From assembly GCA_021163155.1 (NCBI GenBank), contig JAGGXI010000049.1, positions 1 to 32,016 on the forward strand: 32,016 bases of DNA, written 5' to 3'. This stretch comes from Candidatus Aerophobota bacterium (lineage in GTDB: Bacteria; Aerophobota; Aerophobia; Aerophobales; JAGGXI01). The notes below the pieces were generated by a model that searched no databases, was not told where the DNA came from, and saw nothing but the letters and a program-made list of their open reading frames with translations. Positions 687 through 29,697 of the stretch are shown in pieces (within the stretch, counting starts at the first letter, position 1; every line of letters begins with the position of its first letter). The position numbers were made by a program, and so were the translations under genes.

Positions 687-3038
687 CTATTTTTTTCTTA
701 AACGTGCCCCCAAACGTCTCTCTAATAAACTTACTATATTTCGCTGAATCTTATCTATCTCTTTATCCTTTAAAGTTCTCTTTGGATGTCGGAAGATTAA
801 AGAATAGGCAATGCTTTTGTATCCTGAAGGAGTAGATTCCCCATGGTAAATATCAAAAAGTTTTGCTTCCTCTATCCATTTTCCTCCCGCCCTGATGATG
901 TTTTCTCTAATTTTTTCAGCAGGAATCTCCTCTTTAACTAAGATAGATAAATCCCGTTGAATAGAAGGAAACTTTGGGGGCGGAATTATTTTTCTCCCTG
1001 GAGTCCAAAAAGATAAAAGATTATAAAAATCGAACTCAAAAATATAAGAAGGCAAAGGCAATTCAAAATTATTATTGACTTTAGAATTAAGTTTGCCCAT
1101 TATCCCTAAACTTATTTTTTCTTTTTTTATAGCTAATCTCTCTTTTGAGGATAAATAAGGACAATTGCACTGAACAAACTCTACTTTATTTATATGTAAT
1201 TCCTCCAGTAAAGTCTCTCCTAACCCCTTCAAGAAAAGAAAGTCAAAATCTTTCTCTAAAACCAGTCCTGCTAAAAAGGTCCTCTCTTTTAAAGAATCAC
1301 CATTTTTAAATACATTAGCTAACTCAAATACACGGAGTCTTTTAATACCTTGATTTATATTATAAGAGGCAATAGTCAATAAGTGAGGGAAAAGGTGATT
1401 CATTAAAATTTCCTGCTGTTTAGAGAGAGGATTTCTCACTCTTATCCCTTCCTCTGAAGAAAGATTTGTTTTATTAAAAATATTATCCTCACTAAGAGCT
1501 GGCCCTATCACTTCATAAAAACCAAGATCTTGAAGAATCCTTCGGATTCTTCTTCCTATTTGCTCACCAAAATCCTCCCGAGGTCCTCCACTACTTAAGG
1601 AAGGAAGAGTTGCCTTTATTTTATTATATCCATAAAACCTGACTATCTCCTCAATAAGGTCTATTTCTCGGCTAACATCTTGCCGAAAAGAGGGAACAGT
1701 CACTTCCCAGTTCTCTTTTCTTTCTTCAACTTCAAATTGTAATCTACGGAGTATTTTACTCATTGTAGAAGAGGAAATATGGCTTCCCAGGATATGATGA
1801 GCTCGCCAGGGGCGAAAAAAAATCTTCTTTTTTTCTTTAGGAGATTCCCCTTTCTCTATAATGCCTCCCTCTATTTTTCCTCCAGCCAATTTTTGAATAA
1901 GAAAAGCAGCTCTATTTAAAGCTTCTTTCACCCCCAAAGGGTCTATACCTCTCTCAAACCTATAAGAAGCCTCCGTAGATAGACCTAATCTCCTGGACGT
2001 TTGACGAATAGAGATAGGATTAAAATAGGCTGACTCCAGAAGAATATCTCGCGTATAACTTTGCAATTGAGTATTTTCTCCTCCCATAACTCCTGCTAAA
2101 GCAATCGCTTTATCTGAATCAGCAATGACTAACATATTATCGTCTAATCGGCGCTCAAGACCATCAAGGCTAATTAAAACCTCATCCTTTTTTGCTCTAC
2201 GAACTATTATTTTCCCTGATTTTATCAGGTGATAATCAAACGCATGAAGAGGCTGCCCCATCTCCCATAACACATAATTAGTAATATCTACAATATTATT
2301 AATAGGCTTGGCCCCCGAAGCTAATACTCCTTGCCGAAGCCAGAGAGGAGACGAACCAATACTTACATCTCTTATTAATCGAGCAGTATAGTAAGGACAA
2401 AGATCAGGAGCTTGTATATCTATTTCAACTGCTTTATTCTCTTTTTTTTCTTCTCCTTCATTTATCTTATAAAAAGGGATGGATAACTTTGTACCCGTTA
2501 AGGCAGATATCTCACGTGCTATACCTATTATTGATAAACAATCTGCACGATTTGGAGTAATCTCCAGGTCAAATATAGTATCTTCTATATCTAAGGCATG
2601 GGACACACTTTCTCCTAAAGGCGAAGGCGAAGGAAGAATCATAATCCCTGATTGGTCTTCTCCTAATCCCAATTCTTTTTCCGAGCAAAGCATTGCTGGA
2701 GAAACTACTCCACGAATCTTTACTTTTCTTAGCTTTACTCCGTTTTTTAGTACTGCTCCTTCTAAGGCCACAGGAACAAAAAGACCCTCCTTTATATTGG
2801 ATGCTCCACAAACCAGAGAAAGTTTATCTTCTCCTATATCTACTTCTACTATTCTTAACTTATCAGCATAGGGATGATTTTTAAGGGAGATAATTTCCCC
2901 TACCACTACTTTTTCTAATCTACCAATTAGCCGAAATTCTCGCACCTCTAATCCCAAATTAGTCAAATGCTCAGCTAACTCTTCCGGAGAAAAGGAGAAA
3001 TCTACCATTTGTTTAAGACTTCTATAGGAAACTCTCAT
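687..3038 (-). CDS. pheT: Phenylalanine--tRNA ligase beta subunit (783 aa)
   Basis: PheT is the beta subunit of the cytoplasmic alpha2-beta2 enzyme that charges tRNA-Phe. It binds and positions the tRNA and edits mischarged Tyr-tRNA. The order is typical: an N-terminal EMAP/OB tRNA-binding fold (about residues 40-150, VVVGEIISLKNHPYADKLRI and CGASNI), a B3/4 editing region (about 205-380, with SYRFERGIDP), a B5 domain (about 400-475, FRQDVSREIDLIEEI), the catalytic-like core, and a C-terminal FDX-ACB domain (last 95 residues, KFPSIQRDLSILV to HPKRTLKD). Length is normal for the family. The ATG at 3038 is preceded by AAGGTT and a promoter at 3073-3101. No pheS lies beside it, although pheS-pheT is the usual order, and the promoter is immediately upstream of pheT, so it appears monocistronic here. 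Confidence 0.97.
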   Translation of the reverse strand: MRVSYRSLKQMVDFSFSPEELAEHLTNLGLEVREFRLIGRLEKVVVGEIISLKNHPYADKLRIVEVDIGEDKLSLVCGASNIKEGLFVPVALEGAVLKNGVKLRKVKIRGVVSPAMLCSEKELGLGEDQSGIMILPSPSPLGESVSHALDIEDTIFDLEITPNRADCLSIIGIAREISALTGTKLSIPFYKINEGEEKKENKAVEIDIQAPDLCPYYTARLIRDVSIGSSPLWLRQGVLASGAKPINNIVDITNYVLWEMGQPLHAFDYHLIKSGKIIVRRAKKDEVLISLDGLERRLDDNMLVIADSDKAIALAGVMGGENTQLQSYTRDILLESAYFNPISIRQTSRRLGLSTEASYRFERGIDPLGVKEALNRAAFLIQKLAGGKIEGGIIEKGESPKEKKKIFFRPWRAHHILGSHISSSTMSKILRRLQFEVEERKENWEVTVPSFRQDVSREIDLIEEIVRFYGYNKIKATLPSLSSGGPREDFGEQIGRRIRRILQDLGFYEVIGPALSEDNIFNKTNLSSEEGIRVRNPLSKQQEILMNHLFPHLLTIASYNINQGIKRLRVFELANVFKNGDSLKERTFLAGLVLEKDFDFLFLKGLGETLLEELHINKVEFVQCNCPYLSSKERLAIKKEKISLGIMGKLNSKVNNNFELPLPSYIFEFDFYNLLSFWTPGRKIIPPPKFPSIQRDLSILVKEEIPAEKIRENIIRAGGKWIEEAKLFDIYHGESTPSGYKSIAYSLIFRHPKRTLKDKEIDKIQRNIVSLLERRLGARLRKK

Positions 3039-3072: not shown

Positions 3073-3101
3073 TTTATATAACATATCTTCCCATTTGTCA
3101 A
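3073..3101 (-). promoter_or_regulatory. pheT promoter, -35 at the end of a MITE-like element
   Basis: On the minus strand TTGACA (3101-3096) is followed after 17 bases by TATAAA (3078-3073), about 35 bases before the pheT ATG. The TTGACA is the terminal hexamer of the repeat element at 3096-3296, read outward. Confidence 0.65.
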
Positions 3102-3296
3102 TCAACTTTTGCAGGAAACTCATCTTATTAGATTTTTAGAATATCTTGAAATCCGTAATATTTGCATTAATAACGATCTATGTAAGAAGAGAAAGATTAA
3201 TTTCAAAATCACAGATTCCACATTTATTGAGGTAGGGAACGATCACGACCATTCCCTACTTTATAAAATGATTTTCCTGCAAAAGATAGCTGTCAA
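3096..3296. mobile_element. MITE-like element 1 (about 200 bp, non-coding)
   Basis: Its ends form imperfect terminal inverted repeats. The left is TGTCAATCAACTTTTGCAGG and the right end reads GACAGCTATCTTTTGCAGGA on the minus strand. They share the 12-mer TTTTGCAGGAAA. The hexamer TGTCAA occurs at both ends (3096-3101 and 3292-3297) in direct orientation, as a target duplication would. The left arm (about 3102-3216) is nearly identical to the complement of 29578-29697. The core is the palindrome at 3232-3259. It holds no credible gene. Confidence 0.65.
3232..3259. repeat. Palindrome family C, copy 1 (28 nt, imperfect)
   Basis: Starts GTAGGGAACG and ends CCATTCCCTAC, with wobble mismatches in the stem. 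Related copies are at 12946-12973 (perfect palindrome) and 19529-19556. Here it forms the core of MITE-like element 1. Confidence 0.75.
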
Positions 3297-3398
3297 CCAA
3301 GTTTTATAGAGATTTCTAAAAAAGTCAGAAATCTCCGTAAATCTATGTAATCAGATGACTCTGGGGGTTTTAGAGACCTCAAAAAAAGTTGGTTGACA
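3292..3398. mobile_element. MITE-like element 2 (about 107 bp) abutting element 1
   Basis: Left end TGTCAACCAAGTTTT and right end AAAAGTTGGTTGACA are 15-bp inverted repeats with one mismatch. The interior is dispersed repeat family A in inverted orientation: a hairpin GAGATTTCT/AGAAATCTC at about 3309-3337, then the complement of the ATCTGTGTAATC-like text, then GAGACCTC. Together with element 1 it fills almost the whole pheT-purF intergenic gap. Confidence 0.6.
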
Positions 3399-3420
3399 AT
3401 AAGATAATAGAGTATAAAAT
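3393..3420 (+). promoter_or_regulatory. purF promoter, -35 at the end of MITE-like element 2
   Basis: TTGACA (3393-3398) is followed after 16 bases by TAAAAT (3415-3420). An alternative -10, TATAAA at 3413, would leave only 14 bases. The start codon is 20 bases further on. The -35 coincides with the last six bases of the element at 3292-3398. Confidence 0.55.
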
Positions 3421-4856: not shown

Positions 4857-4918
4857 AATCTGTGTAATCTGAACTTTTATCTGTGAAATCAGAGATTTCT
4901 AAACTTTTCAGAAATCTT
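4857..4918 (+). repeat. Dispersed repeat family A, copy 3 (between purF and purM)
   Basis: AATCTGTGTAATCTGAAC, then TTTTATCTGTGAAATC, then a hairpin pairing AGATTTCT with AGAAATCT followed by a run of T (4916-4921). In this position the hairpin plus T-run could act as a partial terminator within the purF-purM transcript. Confidence 0.65.
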
Positions 4919-4933
4919 TTTTAAGAGGAAACA

Positions 4934-9232: not shown

Positions 9233-10234
9233 CTATGCTCGAGGATGATATTTATTGTAAGCTCTCTTTAACCTCTCTTGAGTAATATGAGTATATATTT
9301 GAGTAGTAGAAATATTAGTATGCCCTAATAGCTCCTGCACAGACCGCAAGTCAGCATCTCTCGATAAAAGATGGGTAGCAAAAGAATGCCTCAATGTATG
9401 AGGAGAAATCTTCTTAGTTATTCCAGCCTTTAAAGCATACTTTTTGACAGCCTTCCAACAGGATTGGCGAGAAATCCTTTTATTGTAACGATTGCAGAAT
9501 AAAGCTCTTCTTTTTTCATCATCCTCTTTTTTTCTTTCTCTTAAATAACTTCTTATCCAATAGCAGGCTTTTCTTCCCAAAGGGATAATACGCTCTTTAG
9601 AGCCTTTGCCTAAAACTTTTATCCACCCTTTACTTAAATTTAAATCATTTACATTAAGGTTTACAAGCTCTGAAATACGCAAACCTGCTCCATATAAAAC
9701 CTCTAAAATTGTTTTGTCTCTAATCCCATATAAATTATTGGTAGAAGGAACATTTAAAAGACGCTCTACCTCTCTTTCGGAAAGAAAGATAGGTATTTTT
9801 ATTTCTACACGGGGAGAGACAATCTCATTAAGAGGATTACGTTCTATTTTCCCTTCCATATTAAGAAATCTATATAACATTCGGATAACAGAAATCTTTC
9901 GACTTATACTGGAAGGCTCATATCCTTTTCCTCGAAGCTCACTTATATACCTTCCCAAAGAGTAAGAATCTACTTTAATAATATCTTTTTTTAACCACTG
10001 CATATATTGAGCAAGATCTCTTCTATAAGCATCTATTGTGCGAGGAGAAAGCCCCCGTTCTATGCTTGAATAGTTAAGAAAAGAAGAGACTATTTCAGGA
10101 ATATTTTGGGACTTTTCCCCTTCGCCACTGTATATCCGCCTTAAATTATTTCTGCTCGCCCCGTTAAATAATCTATTAACAGGGCTCGTCTTCTCGTTTC
10201 GGGGAAAATTTAAACTCGTTACTTCCCTCCTCAA
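9233..10234 (-). CDS. XerC/XerD-type tyrosine recombinase (333 aa) with a repeat-encoded N-terminal extension
   Basis: A site-specific recombinase of the Xer type, which resolves chromosome dimers. The core-binding domain is about residues 45-130 (SSIERGLSPRTIDAYRRDL) and the catalytic domain about 145-333. The full catalytic set is visible: R186 (GAGLRISEL), K210 (LGKGSKERIIPL), H279 and R282 (HTLRHSFATHLL), H305 (LLGHTNI) and the nucleophile Y314 (QIYTH). The start at 10234 is TTG. The first 44 or so residues are encoded by dispersed repeat family B, and normal Xer proteins begin about where the repeat ends (KSQNIPEIV). No ATG, GTG or TTG in frame fits a conventional start there, so either the repeat lengthened the protein or translation starts at an unusual codon. 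XerC, XerD and single-Xer types cannot be separated by eye. Confidence 0.88.
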   Translation of the reverse strand: MRREVTSLNFPRNEKTSPVNRLFNGASRNNLRRIYSGEGEKSQNIPEIVSSFLNYSSIERGLSPRTIDAYRRDLAQYMQWLKKDIIKVDSYSLGRYISELRGKGYEPSSISRKISVIRMLYRFLNMEGKIERNPLNEIVSPRVEIKIPIFLSEREVERLLNVPSTNNLYGIRDKTILEVLYGAGLRISELVNLNVNDLNLSKGWIKVLGKGSKERIIPLGRKACYWIRSYLRERKKEDDEKRRALFCNRYNKRISRQSCWKAVKKYALKAGITKKISPHTLRHSFATHLLSRDADLRSVQELLGHTNISTTQIYTHITQERLKRAYNKYHPRA

Positions 10235-12863: not shown

Positions 12864-12973
12864 GGTGGCCATCGTTTTCTACCAATTTGACAAAACACCG
12901 AGAAAAGCTACGCTGTAGAGAACGATCATGACCGGTCCTAAACAGGTAGGGAACGGTCGCGACCGTTCCCTAC
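12864..12973. repeat. Palindrome family C: one perfect 28-nt copy with degenerate neighbours
   Basis: Positions 12946-12973 form a perfect palindrome, GTAGGGAACGGTCG and its complement. Immediately to the left, 12915-12943 (GTAGAGAACGATCATGACCG) is a decayed version, and 12864-12882 pairs with 12915-12933 as an imperfect 19-bp inverted repeat. It reads as successive decayed copies of the same unit. Confidence 0.65.
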
Positions 12974-12998
12974 AAGAAGATATTAAGGATAAATAAAG

Positions 12999-19528: not shown

Positions 19529-19556
19529 GTAGGGAATGGTCGCGACCGTTCCCTAC
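19529..19556. repeat. Palindrome family C, copy 3
   Basis: Begins GTAGGGAATGGTCGCGACC and ends GTTCCCTAC. It differs from the perfect copy at 12946-12973 at one base. Confidence 0.75.
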
Positions 19557-19727
19557 AGCAAACAATGCATATAAAAACTTTAATGAGCTCAATAATATTA
19601 GCAAGGTTATCCTGAAGTATCGGGCTAACTCTCAGCGTTTAATAATTCAGGAACCAGAAGAGACAATGAAGGATGCAAAATTAAAAAAGAAAACCATTAT
19701 AGCATATGAGTTTGCGTTACAAAAAAC

Positions 19728-19785
19728 GGTAGCCGCAGGCTTTAGGTTACACTGTTTTACGCAGGCTCTGAGCCTCGCGGCTACC
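19728..19785 (+). repeat. Hairpin repeat family D, copy 1
   Basis: The outer stem is GGTAGCCGC with GCGGCTACC, and an inner stem uses GAGGCT/AGCCTC-type pairs. It matches the complement of 29469-29526 closely. The flank to the right (ATTTTTTTCGTGCAAAAGTT) is also shared with the complement of the flank there, so the copied unit is larger than the hairpin. Confidence 0.75.
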
Positions 19786-19828
19786 ATTTTTTTCGTGCAA
19801 AAGTTAGCAGCCAAGTATGGATTGATCT

Positions 19829-29418: not shown

Positions 29419-29446
29419 ATTATAGAGTAAATTTTATTTTTGTCAA
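29419..29446 (-). promoter_or_regulatory. gntR promoter (consensus), -35 at the end of a MITE-like element
   Basis: On the minus strand TTGACA (29446-29441), a 16-base spacer, then TATAAT (29424-29419). Both boxes match consensus exactly. The TTGACA is the outermost hexamer of the element at 29441-29697. Confidence 0.8.
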
Positions 29447-29697
29447 CCAACTTTTGCACGGAAAAAATGGTAGCCGCGAGGCTCAGAGCCTGCGTAAAAC
29501 AGCGCAACCTGAAGGTTGCGGCTACCTTACTTTACCGATCAATCTTGATAGTGCAAGGATAACTACAGCTTAAATGTGATATTTATGATTTTGAAATTAA
29601 TCTTTCTATTCTTTACATAGATCGTTATTAATGCAAATATTACGGATTTCAAGATATTCTAAAAATTTAACAAGATGAGTTTCCTCCAAAAGTTTGT
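29441..29697. mobile_element. MITE-like element 4 (about 257 bp), related to element 1
   Basis: The left end TGTCAACCAACTTTTGCACG and the right end (minus strand: GCCAAACAAACTTTTGGAGG) are imperfect inverted repeats. The complement of 29578-29697 nearly matches 3102-3216 of element 1 over about 115 bases (for example TTTTTAGAATATCTTGAAAT and TAATAACGATCTATGTAA). The core differs: here it is hairpin family D (29469-29526), while element 1 has palindrome family C. It has no gene and occupies most of the gap between the gntR and KDG kinase genes. Confidence 0.7.
29469..29526 (-). repeat. Hairpin repeat family D, copy 2
   Basis: GGTAGCCGC at the left and GCGGCTACC at the right form the outer stem. 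Inside are two small stems, GAGGCTCAGAGCCT and GCAACCTGAAGGTTGC. The complement matches 19728-19785. Confidence 0.75.

Follow-up and report, generated by a model that had tools for sequence, protein, structure and literature searches.

Short elements and promoter-like sites in the window

The window, meaning the whole 32,016-nt stretch of DNA analyzed here, contains short MITE-like elements whose ends lie directly upstream of pheT, purF, and gntR (starts at 3038, 3441, and 29365). Positions 3096-3398, between the divergent genes pheT and purF, hold two adjacent elements, E1 and then E2, and not a single one. E2 was read from the sequence and is probably a second member with related ends. Its flanks differ at the center base, being TGTCA on one side and TGACA (3394-3398) on the other. 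Direct reading confirmed that an outward TTGACA is followed by a properly spaced -10 box at all three genes (Table 1). We infer that these promoters are probably used, judging from their sequences. The hexamers had been described as the outermost bases of the elements, which is right for the outermost T; the other five bases are target-site duplication.

Table 1 Element copies and promoter-like boxes in the window
Feature	Positions	Strand	Details
pheT -10 box	3073-3078	-	TATAAA; spacer 17 bp; L091, a relative, matches in spacer and -10
pheT -35 box	3096-3101	-	TTGACA; formed by TGTCA (3096-3100, left copy of E1 duplication) and base 3101
E1, MITE-like	3101-3290		190 bp; left arm ATCAACTTTTGCAGGAAACTC, right arm GCTATCTTTTGCAGGAAAATC
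E1 duplication, right copy	3291-3295		TGTCA; matches left copy
E2, probable second short element	3296-3393		98 bp; related ends ACCAAGTTTT / AAAAGTTGGT
purF -35 box	3393-3398	+	TTGACA; terminal T of E2 plus flank TGACA; conserved in 9/10 element-free relatives
purF -10 box	3415-3420	+	TAAAAT; spacer 16 bp
Truncated copy	19721-19808		right half only; flank AGCCA; duplication absent
gntR -10 box	29419-29424	-	TATAAT; spacer 16 bp
gntR -35 box	29441-29446	-	TTGACA; formed by TGTCA (29441-29445, left flank of third element) and base 29446
Third element, longer type	29446-29697		252 bp; right flank T-TGGCA, giving an imperfect duplication

Other repeats were also present. A REP-like palindrome, GTAGGGAACGGTCGCGACCGTTCCCTAC, lies within E1 (3232-3260) and also stands alone (12946-12974 and 19529-19557), and a second palindromic unit, GGTAGCCGC...GCGGCTACC, which varies between copies, is found in the longer elements (29470-29530 and 19730-19790). 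Outside the element family, dispersed repeats pair 451-513 with 4858-4920 and 523-601 with 10099-10177; relatives of the 523-601 unit adjoin element ends at two other loci (L002 and L026). No RNA family was found in the window at the gathering threshold.

The element family across the genome

We searched the 119-contig, 1.83-Mb MAG to which the window belongs; the records nearest to the window's purF are from Candidatus Aerophobetes. Two arm searches each returned about 40 scored copies, and 113 element ends were collected from the loci around copies, the sequence read being the stretches surrounding them. The copies are short and non-coding, mostly 190-440 bp, with matching terminal inverted repeats, and number more than 40, as is typical of MITEs. 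Those with paired ends span 190-436 bp. Their ends read [A/G]C[C/T]AACTTTTGCAGGAAA; a reversed control of the end-pattern search gave zero matches in this genome.

Many contigs of the assembly (G000) end inside copies: C15, C16, C33, C51, C53, C55, C73, C79, C81, C100, C106, C108, C111, and C119. The family thus breaks the assembly, and in a MAG with so many contigs ending in copies, some of the non-matching flanks may stem from misassembly. Beside one element end we saw repeated AGTGAGACGTAAGACGTAAAAAGTGAGACGTGAAAGG units and GGATTAAA runs (L055 in contig C13, about 1300-1764).

Target-site duplication and target motif

Among 29 candidate end pairs, which include a few spurious pairings, 16 have identical 5-bp flanks. 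These 16 two-ended copies show the target-site duplication expected of MITEs, with TGTCA in seven, TGACA in four, TGCCA and TGAAA in two each, and TGTAA in one. Since the central base is directly repeated, and the non-palindromic TGAAA and TGTAA are repeated whole, these flanks are 5-bp target-site duplications rather than part of an inverted repeat. We rejected a 7-bp duplication of the whole heptamer, since in most pairs the outer bases disagree between the two copies. A 1-bp duplication with CA/TG inside the element was likewise discarded, as all five bases of TGAAA and TGTAA are duplicated.

The target reconstructed from the duplicated copies is the palindrome TTGNCAA. TGNCA flanks 73 of the 113 ends in this genome, compared with 0.2% of window positions, and is missing from the other 40; relatives also follow the rule (23 of 33 ends). 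TTGACA is the standard consensus of the promoter -35 box. As TTGNCAA contains TTGACA, many intergenic landing sites are -35 boxes.

-10 boxes and the terminal base at element ends

The original prediction raised the question of whether every copy carries TTGACA; it was found, facing outward, at 33 of the 113 ends in this genome. We scored a -10 box as strict if it matched at 5/6 or more positions with T1, A2, and T6, or read TATAAA, and looked for it 15-18 bp from the hexamer. Such a box follows 15 of these 33 ends, which upholds the expectation of an excess over chance: shuffled sequences gave a mean of 2.2, and none of 2000 shuffles reached 15. The peak is confined to 15-18 bp, other spacings giving 1-6, and ends facing TGTCA have a -10 box in 2 of 23 cases. 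Relatives show the box at 3 of 12 TTGACA ends (shuffle mean 0.54; 33 of 2000 shuffles reached 3).

Among the stretches read, element-free intergenic TTGACA is followed by a -10 box in 15 of 50 cases, compared with 15 of 33 at element ends (p = 0.17). Promoter recognition beyond the heptamer is unsupported by this comparison, and the -10 pattern can be accounted for by the heptamer itself. A genome-wide regulatory effect had also been proposed, but the evidence fits promoters that were kept, not created. The genes behind TTGACA/-10 ends resemble, by reading of their translations only, pheT, purF, gntR, dnaN, HU, an HflX-like GTPase, and an acyl-CoA dehydrogenase. An element end (L238 in G006:C137, position 1415) from a different taxonomic family within the order gives TTGACA and then TATAAT before an mraZ-like ORF.

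The terminal base of the element is T at 29 of 34 ends facing TGACA versus 5 of 17 facing TGTCA (Fisher p = 1.2e-4). All three arm types, taken separately, point the same way (one-sided p = 0.016, 0.028, and 0.063). The trend may reflect survival of the insertions that rebuild TTGACA, or a preferred orientation of insertion; some T-ended ends facing TGACA (L005 and L017) have no visible promoter.

Promoters of relatives lacking the element

We compared ten purF regions of Aerophobetes relatives, none of which has an element end upstream of purF. As these relatives come from different families within the order, purF and pheT were compared as orthologous promoters and not as true pre-insertion alleles. 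Nine of the ten keep TTGACA between -45 and -53, followed by a -10 box after 15-17 bp, and seven of these nine have TTGACA-16-TAAAAT like the window, where it lies at -48. The divergent -35/-10 pair is kept in five of ten, and in one relative (L091) it reads TTGACA-17-TATAAA, the same as the pheT side of the window.

Upstream of nusB, 6 of 11 element-free relatives carry TTGACA between -61 and -75 together with a -10 box, and 10 of 11 have a divergent TTGACN with a -10 box; in the window's own genome, the nusB-facing TTGACA has no strict -10 box at 15-18 bp. TTGACA promoters precede dnaN in several relatives at variable distance. In relatives, ruvA sits behind another gene without that promoter and was unusable as an empty-site comparison, and gntR, which has many paralogues, was left out. 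From these comparisons, we conclude that the purF and pheT -35 boxes predate insertion.

A candidate mover

The end-pattern search of relatives returned two perfect inverted ends in one contig (G009, C142). They delimit a 2252-bp transposon (L234:1449-3700) with ends ACCAACTTTTGCACGAAA and TGACA on both sides, the duplication of about 4-5 bp that is usual in the IS1380 family. It encodes an HTH/Zn-ribbon ORF and a DDE transposase that matches PF13701 in its second part (E = 4.9e-17). The NF033539 model gave 118.5 bits, read through one in-frame stop, against a curated cut-off of 180 bits, and we therefore name the transposase IS1380-like only. The MITEs and this autonomous transposon have common ends, as MITEs are expected to.

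The first 549 bp of the transposon match C39:560-1108 of the window's own genome (84% over ~550 bp), where the transposase part has been lost, and further IS1380-type fragments were detected in C83 and C11. No intact transposase was found in the window's own MAG, and no plasmid-borne relatives of the L234 transposase were found. We infer that a transposase of this type moved the MITEs in trans.

Comparison with known systems

Members of the IS1380 family, such as IS1247 and ISEcp1, share with the L234 transposon a DDE transposase and a 5-bp duplication; IS1247 makes 5-bp direct repeats (PMC3281130). The L234 transposon differs from them in the extra HTH/Zn-ribbon ORF in front, the target TTGNCAA, and the NF033539 score below cut-off. 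The Correia elements (CREE) of Neisseria are likewise a MITE family with direct repeats resembling a promoter hexamer, in their case the -10 box (PMC9330008). Those repeats are TA, TATAG, and the like, and parts of a promoter lie in the Correia element itself, whereas here the repeat is the core of the -35. IS911, IS2, IS256, and others have an outward -35 at the element end (PMC9330008) and thus also place a TTGACA-like hexamer at the junction with the host, before a host -10. However, their -35 lies within the inverted repeat and travels along, while here five of the six bases are target-site duplication. A partial literature search returned no paper on MITEs that target the -35 box or on a duplication that forms its core. 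We class the family as MITEs belonging to an IS1380-like transposon whose target is shaped like a -35 box.

Interpretation and alternatives

We consider it highly probable that these are MITEs moved, now or once, by an IS1380-like transposase that targets TTGNCAA, with -35 boxes hit yet rebuilt. The transposase would cut the palindrome with a 5-base stagger, leaving TGNCA duplicated. The TGACA copy beside the -10 box would retain its spacing after insertion, and a terminal T on that side would make TTGACA whole, with element DNA replacing the native upstream region. Promoter-facing insertions would then persist as the promoter survives. Judged by their sequences, housekeeping-gene promoters seem to survive the insertions.

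The original prediction left two options, portable -35 boxes or a preference for TTGACA sites. Under donation, TTGACA would be part of the element end, and insertion near a chance -10 box would build a hybrid promoter, as some IS ends do. The outward hexamers and the element-owned terminal T speak for this, but the other five bases depend on the site and form direct repeats around the element, TGAAA and TGTAA among them, and the purF -35 box is already there in element-free relatives. With the duplications and these relatives against it, we reject donation as most improbable, and the idea of portable boxes is largely refuted; a grain of it remains in that the element's terminal T completes TTGACA. 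The presence of the purF box in relatives lacking the element favors target preference, so that insertion into pre-existing -35 boxes is supported. Alternatively, the elements may have no intrinsic target rule and insert loosely, only survivors with a working -35 remaining visible while others were lost. This would account for the promoters behind many TTGACA ends and for the association of terminal T with TGACA. It is nevertheless very unlikely, as promoterless copies share identical TGNCA duplications (for example, TGTCA at L016 and TGACA at L017) and the L234 transposon has TGACA at either end.

Copies whose two flanks are TGTCA and TGACA (E2 and those at L036 and L049) may need a further step. 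They could bridge two back-to-back divergent -35 boxes after two insertions and recombination. Each of them separates a divergent gene pair (pheT/purF, HU/nusB, and DUF3108-like/ruvA), and element-free relatives have back-to-back -35 boxes, about 15 bp apart in one of them (L094). However, a single mutation of the center base of an ordinary duplication gives the same sequence, and MAG misassembly is possible, so we hold the bridging reading as somewhat doubtful.

Returning to insertion at TTGNCAA, we tentatively suggest, as a possibility rather than an expectation, a promoter-sparing transposon: one that targets the -35 box itself and whose end keeps the base that rebuilds TTGACA, making insertion nearly costless in the pheT, purF, dnaN, and nusB/HU promoters. 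It would be a bacterial counterpart of the eukaryotic elements that settle beside tRNA genes. For annotation, a -35 box at the edge of an element need not come from the element. The proposed explanation would also connect an uncultured lineage's MITE family with an IS1380-like transposase. If true, TTGNCAA, the 5-bp duplication, and the terminal T together would explain mobile DNA within intact housekeeping promoters, and promoter-sparing target choice by transposons would become directly testable.
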